A stretch of 46,081 bases of DNA from assembly GCF_900115495.1 (NCBI RefSeq), contig NZ_FOWR01000041.1:1-46081 (forward strand). The letters run 5' to 3'. The notes below the pieces were generated by a model. It made no database searches and was not told the origin of the DNA. It was given only the letters and a program-made list of their open reading frames with translations. The stretch comes from Enterovibrio norvegicus DSM 15893 (lineage in GTDB: Bacteria > Pseudomonadota > Gammaproteobacteria > Enterobacterales > Vibrionaceae). Below, piece by piece: positions 14,309 to 46,081 of the stretch. The position numbers and the translations under genes were made by a program. How positions within the stretch are numbered: the first letter of the stretch is position 1; every line of letters begins with the position of its first letter.

Positions 14309-14352
14309 AATCACACCCCGCTAACGAGCGCTTCGATGTGAGGAGAAAACCA

Positions 14353-16524
14353 TTACAACGCACGGTATTTCTCCCGCAACCGCTGACGAACAAATTCAGC
14401 AATCGTGTTGAACAAGAAGGTGAAACTGAACAAGATAAACGCGGTGAGGAACAACACACGGTAATGGGAACTGCCCACCTCGGATTCGGGCATTTCAACT
14501 GCAATGTTGGCCGACAGAGTTCGCAGCCCTTCAAAGGGATTCCACTCCATCAATGGCGTGTTACCTGTCGCCATCAGAACAATCATGGTTTCTCCAACCG
14601 CACGGCCTAACCCCATCATCACCGCGGAGAAAATGCCCGGACTTGCCGTCAGCAATACGACGCGTGTAAGGGTTTGCCAATGGGTTGCACCTAAGGCTAG
14701 AGAACCATTCGTAAGGTGGCTAGGCACAGAGAAAATCGCATCTTCAGCGATGGTAAAAATCGTCGGTACGACAGCAAAACCCATCGCTAATCCAACAACA
14801 ATGGCATTTCGTTGATCGAAGTTCACGCCAAGCACATCGGTGACAAAAACACGGCTATCGCCACCGAGATAATGCATTTCAATGTAAGGGCCAACCGCAA
14901 ATGCCGCATACCCCAACAGCAAAATTATAGGGATAAGAACAAACAAGTGTCCGCCACTTGGAAGGTGCTTTCTCACTGACCGCGGCAATTCAGCCCAAGC
15001 AAATGCGGTGACCAAAAATGCAATCGGCAATGCAAAGAAGATGAGTAATACGGCAGGCAAATGGGTTTCAACAATGGGTGCAAGCCAAAGTCCAGCCAGA
15101 AAGCCGAGAATGACTGTCGGCAATGCTTCCATAATTTCAATCGTCGGCTTCACCACTTTACGTAAGCCCGATGGCATGAAATACGCCGTGTAGATAGCAC
15201 CACCAACGGCTAAAGGCACCGCAAAAAGAAGCGAAAATGCCGCCACTTTTATCGTCCCGAACACGATAGGCACCGCACTCAATTTACCTTCAAATGATTC
15301 ATCACCAGATGTTGATTGCCACACATAGTCAGGCTCGCTATAACCTTCATACCAAATTTGGCTCCACAACGATCGGATGCTCACATCAGGATGCGGGTTA
15401 TCAACATCCAGCAACGTTAGCGTATTGCCTTGCTCTGCAATCAAGCGATCCGCTCGCGGCGAGAACGAAAATGCTTCAACACCTTTCGCCAAATCCGAGA
15501 AAGAAAAACGATCATCGGTTTCACTCGGCGCGTGCCATAAGGTTAATGTTCCAACTTCAGATAAATTCGCAAACACATTACGGTGCAATTCCGCCGCCAT
15601 AATGCCCGGCGGAGTATCAAAGCTCCGCGCTAACGTCAGCGATCTCGCATTGGCTTTTACGACGTCAAACCACTGCCCTATCTGACCATTTTCTAAGCGG
15701 ATCAACAAAGAGTGCCCACCCGCCAACGCCGTCATTGAGCGTGGTTTTTGATTCGTCACGGCCTCGATATTAACCGTTTCTCTCAGCATGATATCGCGAC
15801 GAAGCACACTGTAGACCTTCAACTTAGATCCCGATAGAACGTACACTTTGCGGCCATCATGGGCAGCTAACACGGTTGAGCCTGACAACACAGGGAAAAC
15901 AGCTCTACGCGTTTCTTGCCCTTGCTCTTGAACTGAAATGATCAGCTCATTGGCAACGATGCCCGCCACCAGCAAATGGTCGCCTTCCATCGAAAAAGAC
16001 ACCGACGATACTGGCGCCTCCCCCTCACTCAAATCTACAGTTTGAAGCGGCTGAATATCAGGGGTGAATTGGCGAGTGCCATTTTGGTAATGAGCAAGAA
16101 AACGGAGTCGATGCAACGACACTTCGCCATTATTCAGCCCGTAGGCAACTTTGCCTGCCGCAGTCGATGCAGCAAAAAAACTGGTAGGCGAAAACACGAG
16201 TTGCTGTTGAAGAAGCGTTTCGGGTTTCTCATTTAACGAAAAGACGACCAGCTCACCTGTGTCTGAATAGCGAAAACCAAATTGGTTATTTTCGTCAATG
16301 CCGAGCTGTGCAGGCGCACCAGAGAGAGGTATATCCAGACGTGTATCAATCGTCACATCTGGGCTTTTAAAAAGAGGAAACACAACATATGCGAGGTAGA
16401 AGAAAATCAATAGCAACGCAAAAAGCACGACTAACCCGCCACCGATAACGGACAAGCGAGCAAGTTTGTCTTTCAAGCGCCGACGAGGATCACCTTGTGT
16501 CAGCACATTGGCGGCGTTTGCCAT
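14353..16524 (-). CDS. pstC: Phosphate ABC transporter permease PstC (long form)
   Basis: Partner channel subunit of PstA. At 723 residues it is more than twice the E. coli PstC length. One transmembrane helix (about 33-58) is followed by roughly 350 soluble residues with repeated beta-strand-like segments that resemble a WD40/propeller fold. The C-terminal permease (about 425-720) has six or so membrane segments and the motif LTNGSLALGATHWQTLTRVVL. A ribosome site (AGAGGT) precedes the ATG. A Pho box at 16571-16588 lies 47 bases upstream. It is first in the operon and is divergent from the ACT-protein gene. Confidence 0.93.
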   Translation of the reverse strand: MANAANVLTQGDPRRRLKDKLARLSVIGGGLVVLFALLLIFFYLAYVVFPLFKSPDVTIDTRLDIPLSGAPAQLGIDENNQFGFRYSDTGELVVFSLNEKPETLLQQQLVFSPTSFFAASTAAGKVAYGLNNGEVSLHRLRFLAHYQNGTRQFTPDIQPLQTVDLSEGEAPVSSVSFSMEGDHLLVAGIVANELIISVQEQGQETRRAVFPVLSGSTVLAAHDGRKVYVLSGSKLKVYSVLRRDIMLRETVNIEAVTNQKPRSMTALAGGHSLLIRLENGQIGQWFDVVKANARSLTLARSFDTPPGIMAAELHRNVFANLSEVGTLTLWHAPSETDDRFSFSDLAKGVEAFSFSPRADRLIAEQGNTLTLLDVDNPHPDVSIRSLWSQIWYEGYSEPDYVWQSTSGDESFEGKLSAVPIVFGTIKVAAFSLLFAVPLAVGGAIYTAYFMPSGLRKVVKPTIEIMEALPTVILGFLAGLWLAPIVETHLPAVLLIFFALPIAFLVTAFAWAELPRSVRKHLPSGGHLFVLIPIILLLGYAAFAVGPYIEMHYLGGDSRVFVTDVLGVNFDQRNAIVVGLAMGFAVVPTIFTIAEDAIFSVPSHLTNGSLALGATHWQTLTRVVLLTASPGIFSAVMMGLGRAVGETMIVLMATGNTPLMEWNPFEGLRTLSANIAVEMPESEVGSSHYRVLFLTAFILFSFTFLFNTIAEFVRQRLREKYRAL

Positions 16525-33165: not shown

Positions 33166-33420
33166 ATGGCACTGCTGATCACCGAGAAGTGCATTAACTG
33201 CGACATGTGCGATCCAGAGTGCCCGAACGAAGCCATTACGTTCGGGGCTGAGATCTACGAAATCGATCCAGACAAATGCACGGAATGCGTGGGTCACTAT
33301 GAAAAGCCAACGTGCCAGTCGGTTTGCCCTATCACGAACTGCATCATTATCGATCCAGAACATCGTGAAACGAACGATGAACTCTTAGAGAAATTCGTTA
33401 CCCTTCAGGGTCTAGCATAA
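33166..33420 (+). CDS. yfhL: YfhL-family 2[4Fe-4S] ferredoxin
   Basis: A small 84-residue electron carrier or cluster-bearing protein. The first cluster ligands are Cys9, Cys12, Cys15 and Cys19 (CINCDMCDPECP). The second set is Cys38, Cys41, Cys50 and Cys54 with the widened CX2CX8CX3C spacing that is the mark of YfhL-type and Allochromatium-type ferredoxins. It lies 3 bases downstream of trhP and shares its terminator, so the two are almost certainly co-transcribed. A role in supplying electrons or clusters for TrhP is an inference from this pairing. Confidence 0.93.
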   Translation: MALLITEKCINCDMCDPECPNEAITFGAEIYEIDPDKCTECVGHYEKPTCQSVCPITNCIIIDPEHRETNDELLEKFVTLQGLA

Positions 33421-33421
33421 G

Positions 33422-33445
33422 AAAAGCGCCGAAAGGCGCTTTTTT
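33422..33445. terminator. Terminator after yfhL, shared with mepA
   Basis: AAAAGCGCC, loop GAAA, GGCGCTTTTTT: a 9-pair stem with a GNRA-type tetraloop, directly after the yfhL stop and 29 bases from the converging mepA stop. Confidence 0.9.
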
Positions 33446-33473
33446 ATTGTCTGCGGCAATGTGTGGTATCACA

Positions 33474-34310
33474 TCACTGACGGAGTACCACCAAGCACTG
33501 CTCTGGTTTGATTTTTACCCGTTTTTTTTTCGTCGTCTTCACGACTTTTTTCTGTTCATCTTTGGGTTTTGGTCGCCAACTTATGAGTTCACTGCCACAG
33601 CCATCCCCTTGCGGGGGCGTTGCTTGATCAACACAAGAAGCACTTCCGTCAGGGCAGCGAAGTCGAACATGCATATGATAATGATGTCCCCACCACGGCC
33701 TGACTTTTTGTAGCCATGTCCTGTCCTCCCATGTCATTTCGCACAAGGTTTCTTTAATGACTGGGTGAACAAAGATGCGAGCGACTTCCGGCTCCGAGGC
33801 TGCTACTTGGAAAAGAACGGCATGTTCCTGAAGCCAATTATCTCGACGCAACGAATAGGATTTTAAATCAACCATGCTGATTGCTGTCGGTTTTTCAACG
33901 ATACTTTTCTTGAGCCTTTCCGGCGCAAAGCTCAGCCAGATATCTGCATCAAGACCGGTTTGATGGCTGGAATGCCCGCTGGTGAAATTCCCCCCACGAG
34001 GCATTGAAATATCGGCAATCAATAAGTCATCCAGACCGAACCCTTTCGTTTTCCCCGCGAGTTTCGTCAGATAGGCAATCATATCTGGGTGACCATAGTA
34101 TCGATTCCTTGATGGACGAATAACTTGATACCCTTCACCCACCAGCGGCATGGCTTCTCCACCTTGAAGACACCCATTGGCATAACTGCCTATCGATTGC
34201 TCTTGGCCATTTGACGGCAGACCCGCTCGCTCCCATGGATTTGCCAATGCCATGGTTATACCCAAAAAGAATAAAGCAAACAGAAAAAGCATGAATAAGG
34301 TTTTCTTCAT
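33474..34310 (-). CDS. mepA: Penicillin-insensitive murein endopeptidase MepA
   Basis: A periplasmic zinc LAS-family peptidase that cuts D-Ala-meso-DAP cross-links. The 278 residues start with a signal peptide (about 1-23, hydrophobic LFMLFLFALFFLGITMALA). Zinc and catalytic residues are in GHSSHQTGLDADIW (His113, His116, Asp123) and in the downstream WWGHHYHMHVRLRCP, as in E. coli MepA. Paired cysteines (CLQG, CEMTW, RCPDGSASC, CGSEL) fit the disulfides of the family. The gene stands alone, converging on trhP-yfhL, and is separated from the TonB receptor by a terminator. Confidence 0.96.
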   Translation of the reverse strand: MKKTLFMLFLFALFFLGITMALANPWERAGLPSNGQEQSIGSYANGCLQGGEAMPLVGEGYQVIRPSRNRYYGHPDMIAYLTKLAGKTKGFGLDDLLIADISMPRGGNFTSGHSSHQTGLDADIWLSFAPERLKKSIVEKPTAISMVDLKSYSLRRDNWLQEHAVLFQVAASEPEVARIFVHPVIKETLCEMTWEDRTWLQKVRPWWGHHYHMHVRLRCPDGSASCVDQATPPQGDGCGSELISWRPKPKDEQKKVVKTTKKKRVKIKPEQCLVVLRQ

Positions 34311-34420
34311 CTCACCCCCACAAGAAAGCGTTTCTCTCCGATCTTAGCAGGCTAGACTCGCGCAAGTGACAATAGGTTACTCAAAGAGCAGAGCAAATAA
34401 GGTATTTGTAATCAAAATCA

Positions 34421-34447
34421 AAAAGGAGAAGCTCAGCTTCTCCTTTT
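34421..34447 (-). terminator. Terminator of the TonB-dependent receptor gene
   Basis: On the minus strand, a perfect 12-pair stem (AAAAGGAGAAGC, 3-base loop, GCTTCTCCTTTT) is followed by TTGATTTT. It lies 65 bases beyond the receptor stop and before mepA. Confidence 0.85.
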
Positions 34448-34477
34448 GTAGATATTCACTCATACCCAAAGACATGA

Positions 34478-34505
34478 GGTAAGAGGAACGTTCGTTCCTC
34501 TTACC
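34478..34505 (-). repeat. Perfect hairpin just after the TonB receptor stop
   Basis: GGTAAGAGGAAC, 4-base loop, GTTCCTCTTACC: a perfect 12-pair inverted repeat that begins 8 bases after the receptor stop. No T tract follows on the minus strand, so it precedes the proper terminator as a first of two hairpins. It may protect the transcript 3' end. Confidence 0.7.
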
Positions 34506-34512
34506 ATTGACA

Positions 34513-36453
34513 TTAGAAGCCCCAGTTAACACCCAACTTAATGTTGCGTCCTTGTTCAAACGGGCCGTTGTAGTCTTCACTCAAGCTCGCTTGATCTCGG
34601 TAAGCTTTGTCAAACACGTTCTTCACCGACGCTGTCAACGCGAGATCTTCTCCGCTGATTGGCATCCACTGTGCGTACAAATCGTGTACGCCATAACCCG
34701 ATTTTTCATCTGTTCCGTCAGGCACATCCGTCAGACGATCAACAAAACGACCAGTCCAGCCAAACTCCAAGTCATCCGTCGCAAAGTAGTTAACCGTAGT
34801 AACAAGCGTATCGCCCGTTGCCGTGCCTATGTTCATATTGCCATCGTTCAAAGGCACACCATTTAACTCTGGCTCTGCTCGGCTGTAACTGATGGTCGCC
34901 GCAACACTTTCCAACTGATAACCCGCTGAAACAGTAAAGCCTTGGTTGTCTACAGTACCGATGTTTTCATAAACACTGCTATCGCGTCCGATGACATCTT
35001 CAATTTTACTGTCAAAAGCTGTTGCTGAAAGGTACCCGTTGTTGAAGTTCCAGTTGATCGTCAGCTCAGTATTTTTCGCCTTCTCACCCTTACGATCGTT
35101 GGCGCTATAGACGTAATCCAACAGCCACAATTCACTCACTTGAGGGCCACGGAACGCTTCTGCATAGCCAAGGATAACGTTCACATCTTCAGTGATGAAG
35201 TACGTTGCTGCGACATTGGGGCTGAACCCGCTGTCTGAAATGTCAGAGCCTTCAGTGCGAGAATCGCCATCACGCAGATCTTCATCCAACGCATAACGGT
35301 CATAACGCGCACCTGCACTGAGCAACAATGACTGTGTAGCTTTATAATCACCTTGGAGATAAGCACCTGTCTGATCGCCTTTATCAACAAAGGTCTGGTT
35401 TCCACCGCTGAACGTTGATTCATCTTTGCGGAAATCGATACCGTAAATCAATGTTAACTTATCGAGCGTAGACGTATTTCGAATATCGCCACCGATAGAT
35501 TCAGTATTACCAATATAGGTACCAAATCGAGGGTCATCGAAGCGCTCTAGCTTCAGGTCGGTGTAATAGAACGTCGTGTCTAAATTTAACCAATGACTGT
35601 CTGAAGCTAAAAGGTAGTTGAGCGTGGCAGTATCGCGGTAAGTACTCTGTGCAAGAGGGTAGTTTCCAGGATTTCCTCTTCTTTCAAAATACCCCATGTG
35701 AGGACGCGCATAGCGGGTTGCGTCATCTTCTTTGCGCTCGTAACTAAAGGTAAGTGTCTGAGAATCTGTTAGTTCACCAACAATCTTCGCGAAACCAAAC
35801 TTGTTACGGAAACCTGTGTATTCAGCCGTATCACCGTTCCCGTCTTCATAATCATCTTGGTCCGTATAGCCCAACGACGCCAACACAGTGACTTTGTCGC
35901 TCAATGCGCCGTAACCTGTCGCAGTTGTTTTAAAGCCATCAGTATTGTCGGAATAGGTGGTTTTAACACGGCCACCAAATTGATCACCGGCCTCGATTAG
36001 CTTTCGAGGATCCTTGGTTTTCATTTTGATGGCGCCACCTAAGGCACCCGCACCATCAGTCGCACGTCCTGCACCTGCTGAGACGTCAACTTGCTCAAGT
36101 AACTCAGGCTCAATAAACAAGCTACCTTGATGGTGGAATAACGAGCCAGCTTGAACAGCACCATCGATGGTGACATTCAGCATGGTGTCTTCAAGACCAC
36201 GCACATACACTTTCTGCGAATAGTCTGTTCCCCCACCGACCGAGACTTCGGAACTTGTGCGGAATATGTCGTTGAGATCGCTCGCTTGGCTTTTCTCAAG
36301 CTGGCTAGCATCAATCGTGACGTCTGCGGCTTGGAGAGGGTTACCAGTAACAACGACGGTTTCGTCAGTATTTGCGATGGCTACATGACTGAAAAGTGCA
36401 GTACATACAGCAATATTGAGCGGGGATATTTTGAAGCTACTTCCTTGGAACAT
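34513..36453 (-). CDS. TonB-dependent outer-membrane receptor, probably for petrobactin-type ferric siderophore
   Basis: A 646-residue ligand-gated outer-membrane channel. It has a signal peptide (about 1-27), a TonB box (DETVVVTG, about 30-37), a plug domain with VYVRGLEDTMLNVTIDGAVQ and GAGRATDGAGALGGAIKMKTKD, and a 22-strand-type beta barrel ending in Phe (GVNWGF), as outer-membrane barrels do. It lies downstream of the siderophore operon on the same strand, with a strong Fur box at 36477-36498, 24 bases before the start. Substrate specificity cannot be read from the sequence; ferric petrobactin is inferred from the neighbouring asb genes. Heme or another siderophore is the main alternative. 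Confidence 0.85.
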   Translation of the reverse strand: MFQGSSFKISPLNIAVCTALFSHVAIANTDETVVVTGNPLQAADVTIDASQLEKSQASDLNDIFRTSSEVSVGGGTDYSQKVYVRGLEDTMLNVTIDGAVQAGSLFHHQGSLFIEPELLEQVDVSAGAGRATDGAGALGGAIKMKTKDPRKLIEAGDQFGGRVKTTYSDNTDGFKTTATGYGALSDKVTVLASLGYTDQDDYEDGNGDTAEYTGFRNKFGFAKIVGELTDSQTLTFSYERKEDDATRYARPHMGYFERRGNPGNYPLAQSTYRDTATLNYLLASDSHWLNLDTTFYYTDLKLERFDDPRFGTYIGNTESIGGDIRNTSTLDKLTLIYGIDFRKDESTFSGGNQTFVDKGDQTGAYLQGDYKATQSLLLSAGARYDRYALDEDLRDGDSRTEGSDISDSGFSPNVAATYFITEDVNVILGYAEAFRGPQVSELWLLDYVYSANDRKGEKAKNTELTINWNFNNGYLSATAFDSKIEDVIGRDSSVYENIGTVDNQGFTVSAGYQLESVAATISYSRAEPELNGVPLNDGNMNIGTATGDTLVTTVNYFATDDLEFGWTGRFVDRLTDVPDGTDEKSGYGVHDLYAQWMPISGEDLALTASVKNVFDKAYRDQASLSEDYNGPFEQGRNIKLGVNWGF

Positions 36454-36476
36454 CTTTGTACTTCCGTGATGATAAC

Positions 36477-36498
36477 GATAATGATTTTCATTATTATC
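36477..36498. promoter_or_regulatory. Fur box upstream of the TonB receptor
   Basis: GATAATGATTTTCATTATT (36477-36495) matches the 19-base Fur consensus at 16 of 19 positions, and the pattern continues to TATC. A partly overlapping GATGATAACGATAATG lies immediately upstream, so more than one Fur dimer may bind. It is 24 bases before the receptor ATG. Confidence 0.85.
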
Positions 36499-36590
36499 AA
36501 AAAGAAGTGCTGTTCTGTAAACGCATTTTACAACTGTTACAAAACCATAAAGCTATGATTTTAAATGATTTAAATTAATCTCACTATAAA

Positions 36591-37325
36591 TCATGAAAAA
36601 CAATACCCTACACCATGCGCCGTTTGTAAACGCTCTGCATCCATTCCTGCTGCCACGAGCTTCTTACGCACTCGGCTCAAATGCATGTCTAGACTTCGGT
36701 CGTACTTTTGGAACTCTCGAGAAAGAACCCGTTGATACAAATAGTCTTTACTCAGGATCTGATGTTGCTGAACCACCAATGTCCAAAGCAATTTAAATTG
36801 AATGGGAGTGACTGAAATAACTTGCCCATCAAAGGTCACGATCTGCTGCTTTTTATCCATGGCGAGTTGATCAACGATCATTAGAGAATGATGGAACGGC
36901 ATGGGCTGTTGTCCCGTTCTTCTTAAGATCGCCGCCGTTCGACAAACAATTTCACTGAAAGGTTGTAGGCGCGTGATGTAGTCATCCGCGCCGTAGAGGA
37001 AGCTGTTAATACAAGTAAGCTGGCAGTATGTTTTTGCTAATAAAACAATCGGAACTGATGTCTTGTGACGCAGTTGTTTGAGTAAGTTATGACCTTTCAT
37101 TTCAGGAAGCGATGTCGATAACATCACGAGTTCAACTGCAAGTTGATCATGCAGTGCTAACGCTTCCTCGGATGATAAACACCAGCGAGCCATAAAGCCT
37201 TTGCGTTGAAGTTGATCGACAAGCACTTGTCCGTACTTTTTATCAGGCTCAACAACCAGCAAAATATTTCCATGCTGTGCTCCTCGTGCATTCATTACTT
37301 CACTCACATCTTTTTTTGAGCCCAT
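36591..37325 (-). CDS. OmpR/CpxR-type response regulator with a degenerate receiver
   Basis: 244 residues: a receiver-like domain (about 20-135) and a winged-helix DNA-binding domain (about 145-243) with DRSLDMHLSRVRKKL, the segment that in CpxR-type regulators forms part of the recognition region. The phospho-acceptor Asp is replaced by Ser70 (VELVMLSTSLPEMKG), the first acidic-pocket residue by Val (LLVVEPDKK), the conserved Thr by Ala (VPIVLLAKTY) and the conserved Lys by Arg119 (GADDYITRL). Normal phosphotransfer is therefore unlikely. It lies 113 bases after asbF and 137 before the receptor start, has a Fur-box-like sequence at its promoter and no partner kinase nearby. A role in siderophore control is inferred. 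Confidence 0.85.
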   Translation of the reverse strand: MGSKKDVSEVMNARGAQHGNILLVVEPDKKYGQVLVDQLQRKGFMARWCLSSEEALALHDQLAVELVMLSTSLPEMKGHNLLKQLRHKTSVPIVLLAKTYCQLTCINSFLYGADDYITRLQPFSEIVCRTAAILRRTGQQPMPFHHSLMIVDQLAMDKKQQIVTFDGQVISVTPIQFKLLWTLVVQQHQILSKDYLYQRVLSREFQKYDRSLDMHLSRVRKKLVAAGMDAERLQTAHGVGYCFS

Positions 37326-37330
37326 TAAAT

Positions 37331-37349
37331 GCGATCGATTATCAATATC
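37331..37349. promoter_or_regulatory. Fur-box-like sequence upstream of the regulator
   Basis: On the minus strand GATATTGATAATCGATCGC matches the Fur consensus at 14 of 19 positions. It ends 6 bases before the ATG of the degenerate response regulator. The left half is strong and the right half weak, so this is a moderate call. Confidence 0.5.
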
Positions 37350-37438
37350 ATTACGTTTTATAAAAGCCTATCACCTCACATATAGGATCCATGTCACATA
37401 AATAGGGTCTAATTAGTTGGGCGACACATTCATTTTGA

Positions 37439-38269
37439 TTATGAATGCATTCGAATGTGCCGTTGAACGGAATCGAGCGCAGCTTTATCCCCCAATAGCG
37501 TTTGCTTAACGTCATTGCCAAACCATTCCAACGAGGCCGTTGCATGATCGTTTTTCAACACTTCGGGGAGAAATCGATGGTAATCCATCGCTCCTTCTAA
37601 CAGAGGCACCATGCCATAACGACAGCCTACGGGTGAGTAAACATTGTCTGGTGAAAATACGTTTAACTGATCTCTCGAACGTACATTTTTCAAATGGTAG
37701 TGCCCGATGCAATGCGCCACGCGCCGATGGAAAGCAACAGGGTCTTCTCCCGCTTCCCACACATGCAAGGTATCAAAGTTCAGTTTCAATGCCGGATGGT
37801 TAACTTCTTCCAGCAACTGAATAATGGAGTTCGGAGTATCCGCTAAGGTTCCAGGGTGCGTTTCGACAAGCACATCCAGCCCTAAATCGGCCGCATAACA
37901 ACAGATTTTATGTAGGCGGTGTGTCATTGTCTTTCGCTGCTTAACATCAACGAGCTGACTCGCCTGATGCCCTGCAAAAGTGCGGACTTTTGACGTTTCC
38001 CAGTAATTCGCTAGACGACAGATATGCTGACACTTTTCTTCTGCATCTCGCGCATCTCCCACAATGGGGAGATAGTCACTGAGCATTGAAATAGACAACC
38101 CCATATCCTTGATCCACTTAGCATCATATTGAGGCTGCGTTTCTAACCCACGCGCATGAACCCCCCAAAGCTCTATACCTTGAAAGTCATGACACCTCGC
38201 CCACTCTGCGATGTTCTCTAAAGAAACCAGATGATGTCGAAACGAGATCGTACAAATAGACAACTGCAT
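37439..38269 (-). CDS. asbF: 3-dehydroshikimate dehydratase AsbF (3,4-dihydroxybenzoate synthesis)
   Basis: Converts 3-dehydroshikimate to 3,4-dihydroxybenzoate, the catechol of petrobactin. The 276 residues form a xylose-isomerase-like TIM barrel. The N-terminus LSICTISFRHHLVS and the phrases GIELWGVHA, RTFAG, HYHLKN and ASLEWFG closely resemble Bacillus anthracis AsbF as I recall it. Metal ligands are Glu136 (VETHPG), Asp166 (NFDTLHVW), His192 (HYH) and Glu248 (LEWF), matching Glu142, Asp172, His198 and Glu253 of the Bacillus enzyme, with Lys194 also kept. It starts one base after the asbDE stop and is the last gene of the operon. It is the gene that most clearly identifies the pathway. Confidence 0.92.
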   Translation of the reverse strand: MQLSICTISFRHHLVSLENIAEWARCHDFQGIELWGVHARGLETQPQYDAKWIKDMGLSISMLSDYLPIVGDARDAEEKCQHICRLANYWETSKVRTFAGHQASQLVDVKQRKTMTHRLHKICCYAADLGLDVLVETHPGTLADTPNSIIQLLEEVNHPALKLNFDTLHVWEAGEDPVAFHRRVAHCIGHYHLKNVRSRDQLNVFSPDNVYSPVGCRYGMVPLLEGAMDYHRFLPEVLKNDHATASLEWFGNDVKQTLLGDKAALDSVQRHIRMHS

Positions 38270-38270
38270 A

Positions 38271-39545
38271 TCACACAGCCTCTGCGCAGGTTTCGATGGT
38301 CAAATCATTGAGCTCACACCAATCTCGATATACCTCGTATAAACGATTTTTAATACGCATTTCAGTTTTATTCTGCTTATTTAGCAGGGCATAAATACCC
38401 ACCTGTAAAGACAAATCCTTCGTCTCAGCAAGCTTCATGATTTGATACTGAATAGAAGAGTAGGTTTGAATTAACTCTTCAATCACATCACACCAGCGCT
38501 CGAAGTCGTCATCGACGAGACCAAGTGCTCGCCAGAAAAACGCAAAGCCATGCTCATACGCATACTTACGAACGGCAATAACCCGAATTTCACGTAATGC
38601 GAAGTTCAAGGCAGACAGAGAAACACCATGAGCACCCGATATATGCGCATTAAGAATGGTGCGAATGGCTTCCGTCAGTGGGTTCGAGGTCCCAATAAAG
38701 CATGCTTCAAAATAGGCTTTCACATCCTCGGGAGCAGCGTGTTTTAAACCCTGTTCATCAAACACATAACCACCGGCGACACTCGGCTGTGCAATAGCAT
38801 TCAAAATGCGTTCGCGATCAAGCAAGCCTTCCCAACGAAAATCAGGATCTAGCACCATGAGTTTTTCGGGGTTATCCGTGTTTTCCAACATGACATAATG
38901 GGGGAAAGGGTTCTGGCTAAACTTATTCTCTCTCTCTGGCAGTTGGTACATGTCCAACATAACCATCAGGTTTGTTGTCTTTGGCTTTTTTGCCAATAAC
39001 ACATTCATTTCTTGAATGTTTTGTCGCTTAGACACATTCTCGTTATACCAAGAATCTAGGCGAACACCATAAAGGCGCTGATACCACGAAAGAAACTGTT
39101 CATGATTGATATCGTCAGAGTGGTATTGAAGCTGAAAGTCTTCACTGATGGTAAAAGTGGCATCCCACACGCCGAAATAGAACGGACGATGATCGATCCC
39201 TTTGCGTTTGAGCGACTCGCACACACAACTGACAAAGCAATGCACTTTTACGTCTTCAAACTCTTCCGTTGTTACCTCGTCTACCACCTCGACCTTATTG
39301 TTCACTCGGCACAGAAAGTCGGCCAAGCTCGACACGGTTGCGTAATCCGCAGCAGTAATGTTTTGCTCGGGCACGCTCAATCCTAAATCGAGTTCTAGAT
39401 GCAGAATAAGCTGAAGAATCAGCACTGAATCAAGATACAGGTCTTCATTTAACTTTGCAGATTCACTGAAGCTGTCCATATGTCGGCTTTGCATGTTTTC
39501 AGCCAGCACTTGTCGGATGGATTCGATAATGTCTTCGCGCTGCAT
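38271..39545 (-). CDS. asbDE: Fused acyl carrier protein and AsbE-like condensing protein (AsbD-AsbE)
   Basis: 424 residues. Residues 1-about 85 are an acyl carrier domain with phosphopantetheine attachment Ser40 in EDLYLDSVLILQL. Residues about 100-424 have no general enzyme motif I recognise and match AsbE in position and size (the separate Bacillus anthracis AsbD and AsbE are about 91 and 327 residues). In the known pathway AsbC loads 3,4-dihydroxybenzoate onto AsbD, and AsbE transfers it to the spermidine amine. A perfect AAGGAGGT ribosome site precedes the ATG. The gene follows asbC by 9 bases. The AsbE call rests on context and length, so the second domain is less certain than the first. 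Confidence 0.82.
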   Translation of the reverse strand: MQREDIIESIRQVLAENMQSRHMDSFSESAKLNEDLYLDSVLILQLILHLELDLGLSVPEQNITAADYATVSSLADFLCRVNNKVEVVDEVTTEEFEDVKVHCFVSCVCESLKRKGIDHRPFYFGVWDATFTISEDFQLQYHSDDINHEQFLSWYQRLYGVRLDSWYNENVSKRQNIQEMNVLLAKKPKTTNLMVMLDMYQLPERENKFSQNPFPHYVMLENTDNPEKLMVLDPDFRWEGLLDRERILNAIAQPSVAGGYVFDEQGLKHAAPEDVKAYFEACFIGTSNPLTEAIRTILNAHISGAHGVSLSALNFALREIRVIAVRKYAYEHGFAFFWRALGLVDDDFERWCDVIEELIQTYSSIQYQIMKLAETKDLSLQVGIYALLNKQNKTEMRIKNRLYEVYRDWCELNDLTIETCAEAV

Positions 39546-39554
39546 GGTACCTCC

Positions 39555-40811
39555 TTATCCTAACGCCGGAATTGAAATTGTGCTTTGTGATAACGTCTTG
39601 CGGTTAATCTTGCCGTTCGCCATCTTTTCAATTTCTTCGCATTGCTCGATATCTACGGGTAGCTGATAAGACGCCAATCTGGTTCCACACCAATGGCGAA
39701 TGCGACTTGGCTCTAACTGATTCGTAGCAATAAATTGCAGACAAACACGCTCTCCAGAAAAAGGATCAGGGCGCTTAAAGACGATCGCTTCCGTGACGTC
39801 AGGGATTTCCAGCACAACATTTTCGATGTCTTGTGGATAAACATTCAACCCCGATACGTTGATCATGTCATCGCACCGAGATACAAAATAAAGCGCCCCT
39901 TTGTCATCAATATACCCAAGGTCTTGGGTGTGGATGGTTACGTCGCCTTTTGTGATCACAATTTCATCAGGGCAAGAAGCGTCGTTTCCTGCAAAGACCT
40001 GCAAATGTGGTAATGGCTGTCCTATTTGGTTTGCGGTGAGCGTATTTGTGTTAATGGCAATACAACCTGCCTCCGAGCAACCGTATTGCTGGAAGACGTG
40101 TTTTGTTTTCTCTCGCAACGCATCAAACCAAGCCCCAGGAAGCACCGTGCCTGACGTCATTACCGCGTGTAACCTCTGATCTTTTGGATAAAGCTGAACC
40201 ACAGAGTTAATCAGCGCGGGAGAGGAATACAGTAAGTGATTCGGTGTATTTAATAAGGTTTTTAACAAGTATTTCGGGTTGATGTTATTGATGATAACGG
40301 GCGTTAACCCTCGCTTCAGGGCGACAAGTACGCCGGCTATTAGCCCATAAGAATGCGTGATAGGACATGCAATAAGCGGCGTCATAGTGTGAGGGGTTGA
40401 GAAGAAAGATACGTAGCTTTCAACTTCCTCAGCAATGGATTGCCAAGTGCGTGTAATCACTTTTGGTTCACCCGTTGTTCCTGAACTTGTTTGAACAAGT
40501 ACTGCATCTTTATCAACCGTACTGTTTTGCAACGTCATCGCGGGCTGGTGTTTATCGAACAACAAGAAATGGCACTCAGCACGGTTCGCTAAGCGTTTAG
40601 CCGCAAGGCGAGGTGTTGGCGCAAATATCGGGTAAAAAGACCCACCGTGTTGGCGTAAATACAGACACACAGACAATACATAAGCAGGGTCCTCACTGCA
40701 TATCGCAAAGCGTTTTCCCGCGCAGTCTCCAAGGATGGGATCGGCTTTAAATGCCTCATAAGCGTCATGAAAATACTCATGACCATAGAATTCATCGTTA
40801 ACAAAAATCAT
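39555..40811 (-). CDS. asbC: 3,4-dihydroxybenzoate-AMP ligase AsbC
   Basis: An ANL-superfamily adenylating enzyme. From the ATG at 40811 it has 418 residues; I prefer this to the TTG at 40829 because TAGGGAC sits at proper ribosome-site distance from the ATG. The AMP-binding P-loop is SSGTTGEPK (residues 109-117 counted from this start). Further core motifs are QYGCSEAG, the hinge region SRCDDMINVSGLNVYPQDIE, and a C-terminal catalytic Lys in MANGKINRKTL. It would activate 3,4-dihydroxybenzoate and load it on the carrier domain encoded next. It is 22 bases after asbB. The substrate is inferred from asbF. Confidence 0.9.
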   Translation of the reverse strand: MIFVNDEFYGHEYFHDAYEAFKADPILGDCAGKRFAICSEDPAYVLSVCLYLRQHGGSFYPIFAPTPRLAAKRLANRAECHFLLFDKHQPAMTLQNSTVDKDAVLVQTSSGTTGEPKVITRTWQSIAEEVESYVSFFSTPHTMTPLIACPITHSYGLIAGVLVALKRGLTPVIINNINPKYLLKTLLNTPNHLLYSSPALINSVVQLYPKDQRLHAVMTSGTVLPGAWFDALREKTKHVFQQYGCSEAGCIAINTNTLTANQIGQPLPHLQVFAGNDASCPDEIVITKGDVTIHTQDLGYIDDKGALYFVSRCDDMINVSGLNVYPQDIENVVLEIPDVTEAIVFKRPDPFSGERVCLQFIATNQLEPSRIRHWCGTRLASYQLPVDIEQCEEIEKMANGKINRKTLSQSTISIPALG

Positions 40812-40833
40812 AACGTCCCTATTGTTCAATATG

Positions 40834-42549
40834 CTAAATAGACAGTGGGTTTGGAATATAGTGGTGGCACTCGGCGCTACTCGCCTTCAGCTTTCTTGTC
40901 ATAAGAGATTCGGTGAGAATTTCGGGTGCTCGGTATCCAAGCAGCGACAAGCGCTCAGCAAGCTCAGGGTGTTCTTTTTCATACTCGTCGAGTTTGTGAG
41001 AAACACGGCGCCAAAACTCGTGTTCAGGCAAAGGATAGAAAGTACTGATAAGGTGTGAAACGTCGGCAAGGTTGTAGATAAACAAGGTATCCATAACAAG
41101 CTCTCGCAGTAGTTCGATCGAACTCATTGCGTAATAATCATCGAGCGGCGCATCACTGAGTGAAGGTTCAATCTCTGCAAAATTCGGCACCGCGTCTGCA
41201 TCACGGATAAATGCGGCGTTGTACTCGACGCTCTCATGAAAGTCTCGAACAATGATGCGCTCTGGCCACCCATCACGATGCACTAGAACCATGTTCTGAC
41301 CATGGGGCTCTATACCGATGCCATGTTTCACCAAGAGATGCCATATTGGTGTCACCGTCACTTCGATAAGCTGCTCTAGCCATGCATCAAGTCCATAGCG
41401 TTCAACCCAACCCGTAACGAATGGCAGCCCATCATGTTCCACCATCATGATGGCGTTAAACGGAATAGCAGCTTCTCCTTCTTTCAAATGAAGCTCTACA
41501 CTTTCTCTAAAAATAACAGCCAGTTGACCTAATTCAGTTGATGAAGTCACATCCAATGAATCATCAGAAAACCGTGCACCAGCATACTCGTTGAGAATGC
41601 TGATCCCGCCCAATGCACCATCACGATGGAGTGTGTTTTCAAGCCATTGAGAAACCATTGGTGCAAGGCAAACAGAATGTGCAGCAAGGTTTCGATGAGA
41701 AGAGGTGTTCACCATATTCATCGGTAACTTTATGTTCGGATGCAGGGGTGACTCTTTGTTCAGCAGCGTTCGTACGGATTGTGTCGCCACGTATTTATCT
41801 GAACCAATGCCAAGAAATATAATGTCTTTCGTCGCAAGGTATTTTGCTAGCCAACCGTCTTTCAATTGCTGCCATTGCCAAGGATGGATTGGCAACAACG
41901 CATAATCATCCCATGTCGCATCATGAGCATTTAGTGCGCCGGACAATCGACTCCATTGCCCATGACCAAGCTCATTGAGCCAAAAGTGTGTCTGCTCTAA
42001 AGGTAAGGTTTGCTTAAAGTAAGAATGACGAATCGCTAACCAATACAGGTTAAAGACATTGCCCGATTCAGGCCCAAATGCTCGATGGTCAGCTTCACTA
42101 AAACCCGTCCTCGCTTTAAATGAGGGATGATAGGGGTGCCCTTCATCCAGTTGATTTTCTAGCTCGGAATAGCTTGATGAACGTCGCGACAATCGCTTGG
42201 GTAAGTGCTGAACATTCCAACGACTGAGTTGTGCCGTTTGAAGAAACTCTTCTGCTAGCGCTTTCTTGATGCTCGCGGTGGTTGGGAGATCATCAATGAT
42301 CGTCAGCCATTCGCTACTCACGTCGATAGATCGCCCATTGATTTTCAGGCTATTCATCATTAATCGATACCGACCGAATGCACCAATGCTGCCCTTAACC
42401 CTGTATTCACGGTTACCCATCATCCATAAGAACTCGTCAGTCAAAGATGAGGGGGAAGGTTCAACTAACTTTTCAAACAACAAGGACTCAAGTAACTGCT
42501 TGATAACTCTTATTTCTGGTGGCAGTTGTTCACAGTTAGGCAGAGGCAT
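40834..42549 (-). CDS. asbB: NRPS-independent siderophore synthetase AsbB-like
   Basis: A 571-residue IucA/IucC-family enzyme that adenylates a citrate carboxylate and condenses it with an amine. NIS motifs include LLPIHPWQWQQL, KYVATQSVRTLLN, KLPMNMVNTSSHRNL, GIGIEPHGQNMVLVH and RDFHESVEYN, and the C-terminal iron-transport (FhuF-like) portion ends YIPNPLSI. A GGAGG ribosome site precedes the ATG, and its start overlaps the asbA end by 14 bases. In the petrobactin pathway AsbA makes the first citrate-spermidine bond and AsbB the second. The A/B assignment here follows gene order and is not proved by motifs. Confidence 0.87.
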   Translation of the reverse strand: MPLPNCEQLPPEIRVIKQLLESLLFEKLVEPSPSSLTDEFLWMMGNREYRVKGSIGAFGRYRLMMNSLKINGRSIDVSSEWLTIIDDLPTTASIKKALAEEFLQTAQLSRWNVQHLPKRLSRRSSSYSELENQLDEGHPYHPSFKARTGFSEADHRAFGPESGNVFNLYWLAIRHSYFKQTLPLEQTHFWLNELGHGQWSRLSGALNAHDATWDDYALLPIHPWQWQQLKDGWLAKYLATKDIIFLGIGSDKYVATQSVRTLLNKESPLHPNIKLPMNMVNTSSHRNLAAHSVCLAPMVSQWLENTLHRDGALGGISILNEYAGARFSDDSLDVTSSTELGQLAVIFRESVELHLKEGEAAIPFNAIMMVEHDGLPFVTGWVERYGLDAWLEQLIEVTVTPIWHLLVKHGIGIEPHGQNMVLVHRDGWPERIIVRDFHESVEYNAAFIRDADAVPNFAEIEPSLSDAPLDDYYAMSSIELLRELVMDTLFIYNLADVSHLISTFYPLPEHEFWRRVSHKLDEYEKEHPELAERLSLLGYRAPEILTESLMTRKLKASSAECHHYIPNPLSI

Positions 42550-44398
42550 AGTTAACCTCCGTTGGCTCTTCTAGGCAGGTCATCACCAACGGGTTAGGAA
42601 TATGGCAATAGATCGCTTGTTCATTTTCGACCGTCAACTCGTCAACGTCATGCACGCGTGTTAATAGATTGCCTTTGGCGGGAATACTGGATCGAGAGAG
42701 GAGCTGATCAACAAACAAGGTGCCAGCGCCAGTGAGAACGTTACGCAATGCTAAAAGGCGCTGCTGAACGAAGCTGACCAATATTCTTTCTTCAACCAAG
42801 CCGTCTGAACCCAAACGGCCAACAATAGAGAACAAATTATTAATCAAAAGGTAATACGCGAATCGATCACAAATAACGTCATCGTCAAAGTACAGAGCAT
42901 CAACCGTGACTGAGTCTGGCTCCATAGCCGCGAGGTGGTTTCTGTACGCATTCGATAAATAGAAACCTTGGTTGTCCCTGAAGTAGTAAATAGACGGGTA
43001 GCCCTCTTCTAACTGAAGAACGCTATTTTGCTGATGCGCTTCCAAGGCGATGCCATGCTCATCGTAGAGCTTTAGCATAGGCTCGATACTGCATTCCCAA
43101 TACTTAGCAAACCATTTAATGGAAGCTTGAGAAAGTGAGGTGTGATCTCTTAATGCGATGGTTTGAACGAAGCGCGACAGCATTGACGTCTCCCCCGGAA
43201 GGGCCTCTTGGGTCAGCGCCGCGATGGTAACAACATCGGTATCTTTTCCTTCCGAAAAGGGGTTTTCTCGGATGATGACTTCAAACCCTGTTTCGCTTTG
43301 TTCCGGCAAGACAACTGTAATGTAAGCAGGGTCTGTGATGATTTTGAATTGCGGATACGCTTCGCTGAATCCTGTTTTTCGATAGAGCGTCGCCATCACA
43401 ACCCCAGCATCAAGTTCATGCCTTTTATTCACGCGTAGTGAGTTCGTTATTTTGACCGGCAGCGAGAATTTATACATCCACGCTAAATTCGCGTTATACA
43501 AAGAGCGAACGGAAGATGTTGCGGTGAAATCAATGCCCTGCGTACCTAAGTCGACGACCAAACCTTCCGACATCAACCGACGAACACTCGATTGGTGAAT
43601 AAGCCATTGAGCTTGTAATGGGTGCATGGGTAGCACCAAGTGACCCTCTTTTATAGGTGATGATATTGGCAATGAAGACGTGATGATCTCTTCTGCAGAG
43701 ATAGTCAGCGCGGAACGCTGACATATAAGGCGTCGAGCAACACTGAAATAATGCAGTGAGAAACTCCCCTTGGTCTCTGGCGCATAATAGGCATGATGAT
43801 AATCAAGCATACCTTGACGACTTTTTGGGGTTGGGTGTTGCCAATGTCCATATAACAGGGACTGTTCCGCATCGATAAAATCTGTGCTTACCAGCTTAGG
43901 ATCATCAAGTCTTTGCGAAATATACGCATTCATTAATGAGCAACTTTCATTTACGCGGGAGAGCAGTTCTTGTTTATTCCTTTCACGCTGAACATTGAAG
44001 GTCGAAAAAACATTTGATGAGAAAATGGTTTCAATAAGGAGTTGCACAACACTCGAAAAAGGCACTTCTTGCCATTTACAACTCGACGGGTGGAACAGAT
44101 AGGCTCGAGAAAATCGGTGACACCCCACTAAGGTGCGGTAATTGACGGTAACGGCAAGTTTAGTGCTTTGGGCTGCCAGAGGCGTTTCAACGACCCAGGT
44201 ACAAGCTTCGAGTGCCATCGATTTATCCGCGTCTTGCCATTGCTTCGCGGTATACCAATGTCCTTCATCTATCTCTTTTAAGTAGCAATTGAAGAAAGCC
44301 TGAAATGATGCAATATCTGCAATTTCCTTTGCGTTCTGGCTCAAAATGACCTCACCTTCAAAGCGAGCAACACTCTTTGTAAGTGCTACATCCAACAA
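42536..44398 (-). CDS. asbA: NRPS-independent siderophore synthetase AsbA-like
   Basis: A 620-residue IucA/IucC-family synthetase and the first gene of the siderophore operon. NIS motifs are LVLPMHPLQAQWLIHQ, FTATSSVRSLYN, KFSLPVKITNSLRVNKRHEL and GIALEAHQQNSVLQ; the C-terminus ends YCHIPNPLVM. By analogy with Bacillus AsbA it would join citrate to spermidine. No ATG occurs upstream of about codon 61, and a stop lies 8 codons upstream, so the start must be TTG at 44398 (or the next codon, also TTG), with AGGA 9 bases upstream. A Fur-box-like sequence lies at 44415-44429. It is divergent from the MATE gene. Confidence 0.87.
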   Translation of the reverse strand: MLDVALTKSVARFEGEVILSQNAKEIADIASFQAFFNCYLKEIDEGHWYTAKQWQDADKSMALEACTWVVETPLAAQSTKLAVTVNYRTLVGCHRFSRAYLFHPSSCKWQEVPFSSVVQLLIETIFSSNVFSTFNVQRERNKQELLSRVNESCSLMNAYISQRLDDPKLVSTDFIDAEQSLLYGHWQHPTPKSRQGMLDYHHAYYAPETKGSFSLHYFSVARRLICQRSALTISAEEIITSSLPISSPIKEGHLVLPMHPLQAQWLIHQSSVRRLMSEGLVVDLGTQGIDFTATSSVRSLYNANLAWMYKFSLPVKITNSLRVNKRHELDAGVVMATLYRKTGFSEAYPQFKIITDPAYITVVLPEQSETGFEVIIRENPFSEGKDTDVVTIAALTQEALPGETSMLSRFVQTIALRDHTSLSQASIKWFAKYWECSIEPMLKLYDEHGIALEAHQQNSVLQLEEGYPSIYYFRDNQGFYLSNAYRNHLAAMEPDSVTVDALYFDDDVICDRFAYYLLINNLFSIVGRLGSDGLVEERILVSFVQQRLLALRNVLTGAGTLFVDQLLSRSSIPAKGNLLTRVHDVDELTVENEQAIYCHIPNPLVMTCLEEPTEVNYASA

Positions 44399-44414
44399 GG
44401 CTGAGAATCCTAAG

Positions 44415-44429
44415 TGATATTAATTATCA
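44415..44429. promoter_or_regulatory. Fur-box-like sequence upstream of asbA
   Basis: On the minus strand TGATAATTAATATCA fits the Fur 7-1-7 pattern TGATAAT-N-ATTATCA with two mismatches, preceded by GAAA. It lies 16-30 bases before the asbA TTG and could also affect the divergent MATE gene 123 bases away. Confidence 0.65.
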
Positions 44430-44551
44430 TTTCACCAACTGTTACTTTTGTTACAACGCCCCTCCAGAAAGGTCTCAAATTCACAACCGGCCCCTAGTGA
44501 TGATTCACTCACTCGAACAAGATAACGTTTTTACACAAAGCATGACTCTCA

Positions 44552-45904
44552 ATGGCCACAAAAAACCGCATTACTGACGCGCCGATCATCCCAACATTCT
44601 TCTACTTCGCCTTACCTTCCCTCGCTGGATTGCTTGCCATATCAAGTGCCAGCATTGTTGACGGTATATTTGTTGGACGCTATCTAGGCGCAGCGCCTCT
44701 TGCATCAATTAATCTACTCATTCCTTACTTTACGTTTATGTTTTCTGTCTGCTTGATGATTGCAATAGGGGGCACTGTATTGGCGGGTAGGTACATAGGT
44801 GAAAAGAAGCAGAAAAAGGCAGACGCTATCTTTTCTCAATCTCTCATTAGCGCGATGTTGTTCACAGTCGTAATGGCGGCGATCGTGACACCAAACAGTG
44901 GGTACCTATTTGATGCGCTCAATGCGCCACAAGACATACATGAAACCATGAATAGCTATTTTGGCATTATGTCTTTCTGCCTAATCATCCAATTGACCAC
45001 CATGGTGTTGTATTACTTTGTACGTGCCGACGGTTTTCCGGTATTAGCAACGGCGGCGCTCATCTTTGGCTCAATCACCAATATTGCTTTGGATATTCTT
45101 TTCCTCGGATACTTAGGGTTAGGCATTGAATGGGCTGCATGGGCGACCACGATTGCCCAGAGTATACAGCTCATTGTTTTGCTTTCCTTTTTTGTGCAGA
45201 AAAACAGAACGCTGAAGTTCACGTTGAAGGGTTTAAAAATCAAAGAGTCCGCACGCGCGTTCATCAATGGATTTTCTGAATTCATCAATGAAATATCTGT
45301 AGGGATAGTGATTTTTACTGTTCACTGGCTATTGCTCGTAAACGGAGATGATGCAGCAATTGCAGGCTTCTCAATCGCAAATTATGTTCTTTTTATCAGC
45401 ATGATGGCGTACTACGGTATTGTGGATGCTATCCATATTCTTGTGAGTCAAAATCTAGGTGCAGGGAATCACCGCCGTATCAGACAATTCATGATTTTAG
45501 CGGCAGTAACTATTCTAAGCATTAGCACTGTACTAGTGCTAGTCTGTACGCTGATGCCCCACCATCTCTCCAAATTGTTCCTCTCAGATCTAGAAAACGC
45601 ATCACAGCAAAATGCTTTGCTCTATCTGAATATCCTCTGGCCATGCCTTATGTTCAGTGGCCTTAATGTTTTAATCTCCGCGTATTTCACCGCGGTCCAG
45701 AAACCATTGCAATCCACTGCAATCGCATTAAGTAGAGGATTAGTGCTTCCAGTGATACTCCTCCTCTCCTTTTCAACCTATCTGAAACAAACACACTTTC
45801 TCGCCGCCCTGCCCGTCGCCGAATTCATAACACTAGCTTTAGCGCTGACTTTGTTTGCTGTGCACCAGAAACGGAAAACTCCCGACGCCCCTGTTTATGC
45901 TTGA
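44552..45904 (+). CDS. MATE-family multidrug/siderophore efflux protein
   Basis: A 450-residue inner-membrane antiporter with about 12 hydrophobic segments in two similar halves. The N-terminal half has the MATE hallmarks LPSLAGLLAISSASIVDGIFVG and GGTVLAGRYIGEKK. Export would be driven by a sodium or proton gradient. It is transcribed divergently from asbA with 153 bases between start codons, which carry the Fur-like box. Position suggests export of newly made siderophore, but MATE proteins also export drugs, so this is an inference. A hairpin with A/T flanks follows 17 bases after the stop. Confidence 0.9.
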   Translation: MATKNRITDAPIIPTFFYFALPSLAGLLAISSASIVDGIFVGRYLGAAPLASINLLIPYFTFMFSVCLMIAIGGTVLAGRYIGEKKQKKADAIFSQSLISAMLFTVVMAAIVTPNSGYLFDALNAPQDIHETMNSYFGIMSFCLIIQLTTMVLYYFVRADGFPVLATAALIFGSITNIALDILFLGYLGLGIEWAAWATTIAQSIQLIVLLSFFVQKNRTLKFTLKGLKIKESARAFINGFSEFINEISVGIVIFTVHWLLLVNGDDAAIAGFSIANYVLFISMMAYYGIVDAIHILVSQNLGAGNHRRIRQFMILAAVTILSISTVLVLVCTLMPHHLSKLFLSDLENASQQNALLYLNILWPCLMFSGLNVLISAYFTAVQKPLQSTAIALSRGLVLPVILLLSFSTYLKQTHFLAALPVAEFITLALALTLFAVHQKRKTPDAPVYA

Positions 45905-45921
45905 GCCCAAAACGAAAAAAA

Positions 45922-45941
45922 CCCCGCTATTGCTAGCGAGG
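45922..45941 (-). terminator. Terminator, copy 1 of tandem unit
   Basis: On the minus strand CCTCGCTA, loop GCAA, TAGCGGGG and then seven T form a classical terminator. It faces out of the tRNA/rRNA-like unit beyond the window end. On the plus strand it may also close the MATE transcript, though its T tract there is short. Confidence 0.85.
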
Positions 45942-45962
45942 CTTCTTAATACATGACGGAGC
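45922..45962 (-). repeat. 41-base direct repeat, copy 1
   Basis: Copy 1 of a 41-base unit that recurs at 46041-46081 with 3 mismatches, 119 bases apart. Each copy contains the terminator hairpin and a GCTCCG(T/C)CA end that resembles a tRNA acceptor 3' end. Confidence 0.9.
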
Positions 45963-45966
45963 GACC
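45954..45966 (-). pseudogene. Possible tRNA 3'-end remnant
   Basis: On the minus strand GGTCGCTCCGTCA resembles the last 13 bases of a tRNA-Asp-like gene (acceptor strand, discriminator, altered CCA). The preceding bases up to 46040 do not fold into a recognisable tRNA, so only the 3' end is present. Confidence 0.4.
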
Positions 45967-46040
45967 GGGGGCGCGCACGTCCGGAACTCAAGCCGAAGGC
46001 TCGTGAGAGCCCATTAACAAAACCTACAAACGATAAAAAG

Positions 46041-46060
46041 CCCCGCTATTGCTAGCGAGG
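46041..46060 (-). terminator. Terminator, copy 2 of tandem unit
   Basis: The same CCTCGCTA-GCAA-TAGCGGGG hairpin followed on the minus strand by CTTTTTA. It directly follows the tRNA-like end at the window border. Confidence 0.85.
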
Positions 46061-46072
46061 CTTCTTAATGAA

Positions 46073-46081
46073 TGGCGGAGC
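46073..46081 (-). tRNA. Probable 3' end of a minus-strand tRNA, perhaps tRNA-Asp (cut by the window)
   Basis: On the minus strand the window begins GCTCCGCCA, as expected for the acceptor 3' strand plus CCA of tRNA-Asp (5' end GGAGCG). A terminator follows 12 bases downstream. Only 9 bases are visible, so identity is tentative. Confidence 0.35.

Follow-up and report, generated by a model that had tools for sequence, protein, structure and literature searches.

The asb operon and its gene products

We analysed a stretch of 46,081 nucleotides from Enterovibrio norvegicus DSM 15893 (contig NZ_FOWR01000041.1; hereafter the window), in which an operon that by its gene content belongs to the petrobactin (asb) kind of siderophore systems occupies positions 37439-44398 of the minus strand. 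Five packed open reading frames (ORFs) follow one another in the order AsbA-B-C-DE-F, with gaps of -14, 4, 9 and 1 nt. The initial annotation of this DNA had described five packed minus-strand genes with the content and order of asbABCDEF: the ORFs lie where it placed them and the enzyme set and order hold, but AsbD and AsbE turn out to be one fused gene.

The first two genes encode synthetases of the nonribosomal peptide synthetase-independent siderophore (NIS) type. AsbA (42536-44398; 620 aa, TTG start) is an IucA/IucC-type synthetase that matches PF04183 at 178.5 bits; its assignment as AsbA-like rests on its nearest entries in the PDB, which are IucA (5jm7, E 1.3e-44) and AcsD (E 5.4e-36). 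AsbB (40834-42549; 571 aa) matches the solved AsbB of Bacillus anthracis (3to3) over nearly its whole length with an E-value of 3.7e-100. The third gene (39555-40829; 424 aa as listed) encodes an AsbC-like aryl-AMP ligase scoring 544.9 bits (cut-off 513) on NF006167, a model titled ‘acyl-CoA synthetase’ that we take to cover AsbC. As the match to this family begins at residue 7, the true start of AsbC is probably the ATG at 40811, which would give a protein of 418 aa.

The fourth gene (38271-39545; 424 aa) encodes the AsbD-AsbE fusion, in which a carrier domain bearing Ser40 precedes a DUF6005 (PF19468) acyltransferase domain. Residues 1-87 reach 89.8 bits on NF005798, the model for the AsbD carrier, and so fall short of the 100-bit cut-off; residues 98-415 score 483.5 bits (cut-off 25) on DUF6005, the family to which AsbE presumably belongs. 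The best 80 of 139 AsbDE relatives were kept for comparison, comprising 14 loci from Vibrionaceae, eight from other gammaproteobacteria and 58 that are alphaproteobacterial by record title; in an alignment of the window with 44 of these 80 loci, Ser40, Cys103, His216 and Asp233 are invariant (45/45 sequences).

The last gene (37439-38269; 276 aa) encodes AsbF, which would act as a 3-dehydroshikimate dehydratase and matches the solved B. anthracis AsbF (3dx5) with an E-value of 1.4e-71. The next-best PDB match is an epimerase (E 2.9e-5), and this difference rules out a sugar isomerase, the grouping that would have told against the initial annotation, and places the protein with AsbF. The other alignments drew on 28 of the 80 loci, with L018 outside them; in these, Glu136, Asp166, His192 and Glu248, which we take from the AsbF literature to be the metal ligands, are invariant in all 29 sequences (window plus 28 loci), as the initial annotation had noted for the window. 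The comparison with B. anthracis that it had proposed thus yields matches for both AsbB and AsbF.

The cassette as a whole is larger than the operon and spans about 34513-45904. The five asb genes had been recognised correctly, with asbF taken as the end; a transporter of the multidrug and toxic compound extrusion (MATE) family, a regulator, a receptor and two Fur boxes had been missed.

Predicted fold of the AsbE domain

A structure model of AsbDE was built from the 45 sequences, with a predicted local distance difference test score (pLDDT) of 85.8 and a predicted template modelling score (pTM) of 0.81. When this model was compared with the PDB, 14 matches with E-values up to 0.001 were obtained, all of them to CtaG (best E 7.2e-8), AziU2-U3 (4.2e-5) or CcbD (3.6e-4); the template modelling score of the top match is modest, at 0.46 by query and 0.60 by target. 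Both CtaG and CcbD resemble cysteine proteases and couple carrier-bound acyl groups to amines. AsbE (DUF6005) is therefore predicted, from the model, to share the fold of these amide synthases. Sequence searches detected no similarity between AsbE and CtaG or CcbD, and kinship at the sequence level was accordingly dropped.

The invariant Cys103, His216 and Asp233 form a candidate catalytic triad for AsbE, with a spacing of 113 + 17 residues as against 117 + 16 in CtaG, where C11, H128 and D144 are the mutated residues according to PDB entry titles. Taken together, the fold match and the invariant triad lead us to predict that the aryl group rests on Cys103 between carrier and polyamine. In predicted fold the AsbE domain resembles CtaG (closthioamide) and CcbD (celesticetin), from which it differs in having its own carrier fused to it and in acting on another acyl group and another amine. 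The candidate triad suggests a mechanism, open to testing, for a family whose function Pfam still gives as unknown.

Fur boxes, transporter, regulator and receptor

Searching the whole window for the 19-bp Fur palindrome with up to three mismatches yielded two sites, against 0.02 expected from shuffled sequences, and both lie in promoter regions of the cassette: one between asbA and the MATE gene (44413-44431) and one ahead of the receptor gene (36474-36492), each with two mismatches to the consensus. The box before asbA is present in 14/14 Vibrionaceae loci; of the 13 Vibrionaceae loci containing the receptor gene, 11 have a box ahead of it.

The MATE-family gene (44552-45904, plus strand; PF01554, 132 bits) is divergent from asbA. 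A MATE gene lies upstream of asbA in all 14 Vibrionaceae and all eight other gammaproteobacterial loci and in none of the other 58 loci, within the stretches examined. We propose, from this placement, that the protein exports the siderophore.

Downstream of asbF, on the minus strand, lie a regulator of the OmpR type (36591-37325; PF00072 and PF00486; likely start ATG at 37295) and a TonB-dependent receptor of 646 aa (34513-36453). The pair follows asbF in every Vibrionaceae locus but one (13 of 14); the contig of the remaining locus (L018) ends too early. Within the genus, close relatives of both genes occur in 10/10 asb-positive and 1/8 asb-negative genomes (Fisher p 2.5e-4, relatedness ignored); two genomes (G011 and G012) have the receptor and asb on different contigs. 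Because of its linkage to asb, we propose the TonB-dependent protein as the receptor of the ferric siderophore. An asb-negative relative retains the regulator/receptor pair (G015:C31:434-3165; 57% and 53% identical) and possibly uses the siderophore of others.

The regulator has serine at the phospho-acceptor aspartate position of its receiver domain, and this column holds serine or alanine in 13/13 Vibrionaceae sequences covering it, several of which are near-duplicates. Among more distant relatives, four have a residue in this column: aspartate in two and glycine in two. Lacking the phospho-acceptor aspartate, the regulator is probably not switched by a kinase; that it senses the siderophore directly is a guess.

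A scan for terminator-like hairpins against a consensus found one with a 12-pair stem just past the receptor gene (34478-34505, minus strand), the whole window holding 18 such sites as against 12.9 in shuffled sequences. Two further, near-identical hairpins stand in tandem after the MATE gene (45916-45947 and 46034-46067).

Distribution and phylogeny of the cassette

The closest named relatives of the fusion protein come from Enterovibrio baiacu (92%), other Enterovibrio, Grimontia and Photobacterium, and 18 of the 20 other ORFs scanned in the window match housekeeping, repair, phosphate and cell-wall families, bearing out the earlier suggestion of a petrobactin-type operon in a Vibrionaceae chromosome. 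Among those neighbours, the two phosphate permease genes (12662-16524) encode long proteins, of 550 and 723 aa, in which matches to the PstA/PstC families are confined to the C-terminal parts. DUF6005 was found in 10/18 genomes of the genus and in 20 of 296 sampled Vibrionaceae.

A quick tree was made from four Asb proteins, leaving out AsbA, locus L017 and the over-long AsbB of L073; in it, the 13 Vibrionaceae rows form a single clade (Shimodaira-Hasegawa-like approximate likelihood ratio 100, no bootstrap), apart from seven Alteromonadaceae-type rows and from Balneatrix plus alphaproteobacteria. A megablast search of 33400-46081 against a plasmid collection returned no match, so a recent plasmid origin of the cassette is unsupported; more distant fused AsbDE genes, all below 60% identity, are carried on 71 plasmid records.

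Several loci depart from the pattern seen in the window. In twelve of the 58 loci from outside the gammaproteobacteria, the stretch examined encodes AsbA, AsbB, AsbC and AsbDE, while AsbF has no match there (L027, L028, L031, L032, L039, L044, L050, L062, L063, L071, L072 and L086, of which L072 is cut by a contig end); one reading is that these use a different source of aryl acid or make a different product. The asb cassette of E. coralii (L017, apparently the same genome as G005, contig C21) looks broken, with shortened AsbB and AsbC frames, a truncated regulator with an in-frame stop and a receptor split into two frames, and the best AsbA, AsbB and AsbC pieces of E. nigricans (L018) are likewise partial. 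In another Vibrionaceae genus, the DUF6005 gene is split in two, has TGA codons in frame and is probably broken (G029:C4:80420-81381).

Our literature search found no paper pairing petrobactin with Enterovibrio, although the supplementary data of PMC8776838 may already list Vibrionaceae; for petrobactin and Photobacterium, neither term stood in any title or abstract among the matches. In the available part of a survey of nine Vibrionaceae siderophore systems (PMC5812596), petrobactin is mentioned zero times.

Polyamine supply and the predicted product

The searches covered four polyamine genes (speE, nspC, the 2,4-diaminobutyrate (DABA) enzyme and carboxynorspermidine synthase), with the 296 Vibrionaceae as family sample. 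The E. norvegicus genome encodes side by side (L098) a 982-aa DABA aminotransferase-decarboxylase, a carboxynorspermidine synthase and NspC, the three enzymes described as the norspermidine pathway of Vibrionales (PMC11531321). Within this operon, NF043000 is matched at 863.4 and TIGR01047 at 526.6, both over cut-off; the fused DABA enzyme passes TIGR00709 (529.7), its decarboxylase half reaching 417.2 on NF052646, under the cut-off of 900. In each of the 20 asb-positive Vibrionaceae nspC passes its cut-off, and each has the fused DABA enzyme, which in G029 is in two pieces of one 967-aa frame. The speE model (TIGR00417, E 0.001) found no match in the Enterovibrio genome or in any of these 20. 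The initial annotation had allowed for a polyamine other than that of petrobactin, and the norspermidine pathway and the lack of a detected spermidine synthase strengthen that suggestion.

By homology to the Asb enzymes described in PMC6836290, AsbF would convert 3-dehydroshikimate to 3,4-dihydroxybenzoate, with which AsbC would charge the AsbD domain at Ser40. The AsbE half of the fusion would then transfer the 3,4-dihydroxybenzoate, probably via a thioester on Cys103, onto a terminal amine of a triamine, and AsbA and AsbB would couple two such triamines to citrate. The MATE protein would carry the product out and the linked TonB receptor would bring its iron complex back in. Given that the host encodes norspermidine synthesis and no spermidine synthase was detected, the predicted product is the bis-norspermidine form. 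We assign a probability of roughly 0.55 to the reading that this is a Fur-controlled, self-contained petrobactin-type cassette whose main product, on the cell’s own polyamines, is bis-norspermidine petrobactin with an [M+H]+ of 691.330; norspermidine is thus, in our judgement, the likelier triamine, though unproven.

A number of observations weigh against this reading. SpeE is over cut-off in only 4/296 Vibrionaceae and, being so rare, its absence is a family trait with no link to asb; outside the family it is below cut-off or absent in 11 of 14 asb-positive genomes. We therefore rejected the absence of SpeE as sufficient proof of norspermidine use. The presence of nspC was likewise rejected as proof of a norspermidine product, since nspC is over cut-off in 6 of the 14 asb hosts outside Vibrionaceae. 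Sinorhizobium fredii USDA 205, an asb-positive strain of a species for which petrobactin production is reported (PMC12815270), matches neither the speE nor the nspC model; at least one route to spermidine therefore escapes these models. Vibrio cholerae is described as importing spermidine and not making it (PMC5646818), which makes import a serious alternative here. The cluster seems broken in at least two (G005 and G029) of the 20 asb-positive genomes, and the receptor scores nearer to heme- and enterobactin-type receptors.

Less likely, though a serious alternative, is that the product is authentic bis-spermidine petrobactin, the spermidine being either imported, as in V. cholerae, or produced by the carboxynorspermidine enzymes with putrescine as substrate, and AsbA and AsbB selecting it. 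In the asb hosts G296-G299 (Alteromonas and Planctobacterium), nspC passes its cut-off and SpeE does not, so carboxynorspermidine enzymes may make spermidine there, and petrobactin production is reported for a named Alteromonas (PMC8776838). Unlike G296-G299, however, the Enterovibrio genome has the fused DABA enzyme, which would supply diaminopropane. As judged from sequence matches, this enzyme is the discriminating gene: 6/6 of the gammaproteobacterial asb genomes compared from outside Vibrionaceae show single-domain matches only, at no more than 36%, among the matches listed.

Compatible with any of these products, but unlikely, is that the receptor and regulator are a separate pair for heme uptake. 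The best PDB match of the receptor is FrpB/ferric enterobactin receptor, followed by heme receptors, it matches the heme-type model TIGR01785, and G015 keeps both genes in the absence of asb. The TIGR01785 score (282.9 bits), however, is under the cut-off of 316.85, the pair follows asb across the genus as described above, and related receptors adjoin asb in Balneatrix (45% identical) and in S. fredii USDA 205 (28%), a species reported to use the petrobactin receptor FprA (PMC12815270).

We consider it improbable that the cell makes a mixture of 691.330, 705.345 and 719.361, set by whichever triamine is present, or that the product is altered further, for instance to a sulfonate. Published Asb enzymes take norspermidine in vitro (as cited in PMC8776838) and sulfonated petrobactin is known in Marinobacter (PMC6836290), but the conserved cassette showed neither a sulfotransferase nor any other tailoring gene. 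That the cluster is a decaying, silent relic, as the several broken frames of E. coralii might suggest, is very improbable, for every cassette frame of the window is open and the key residues and Fur boxes are retained.

Bis-norspermidine petrobactin would assemble from citrate, two norspermidines and two dihydroxybenzoates with loss of four waters, giving C32H46N6O11 and a calculated [M+H]+ of 691.3297. This equals the mass of a putative petrobactin derivative of the same formula reported from North Pacific water, mainly from the surface to 150 m (PMC8776838). According to the available text of that report, the derivative has not been isolated from any marine bacterium, norspermidine is proposed as its linker and Vibrionales as the main norspermidine makers among Gammaproteobacteria, and the published Asb pathway has been cited as making the norspermidine analogue in vitro. 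Other organisms also make norspermidine, so the match of formulae is no proof of origin. What our analysis contributes is a set of concrete Vibrionaceae genomes that hold both an asb cassette and a norspermidine pathway, and thereby culturable candidate producers of 691.330 in Enterovibrio, Grimontia and several Photobacterium. If bis-norspermidine petrobactin is indeed the product, one operon would give different siderophores according to the polyamine of its host, which bears on the distribution left open by PMC8776838. We would regard as speculative, and on balance unlikely, the fuller proposal that the Enterovibrio-Grimontia-Photobacterium cassette natively makes bis-norspermidine petrobactin and is a natural source of the 691.330 siderophore in surface water of the Pacific, with the aspartate-less regulator sensing the siderophore or its iron complex directly and not answering to a kinase.

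Comparison with known siderophore systems

The asbABCDEF operon of B. anthracis has the same enzyme set and order, and its solved proteins are those matched by AsbB and AsbF of the window. In Enterovibrio, AsbD and AsbE are fused, a MATE gene stands beside the operon and the host polyamine differs. The petrobactin exporter of B. anthracis is reported to be the resistance-nodulation-division protein ApeX, loss of two MATE proteins having failed to stop export (PMC5596346).

Alteromonas loci share with Enterovibrio the fused AsbDE and a MATE gene near asbA, and such a gene has also been noted near asbA in Marinobacter (PMC5596346); the idea of a MATE exporter is therefore not new. The Vibrionaceae cassettes are distinguished from those of Alteromonas and Marinobacter by forming their own clade, by a divergent MATE gene, by the downstream regulator and receptor and by the DABA enzyme for norspermidine.

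Finally, vibriobactin, fluvibactin and vulnibactin are described as joining catechols to a norspermidine backbone (PMC11531321), as the product predicted here would. Those siderophores, however, are built by peptide synthetases from 2,3-dihydroxybenzoate and threonine, whereas the Enterovibrio cassette would use citrate and NIS synthetases.

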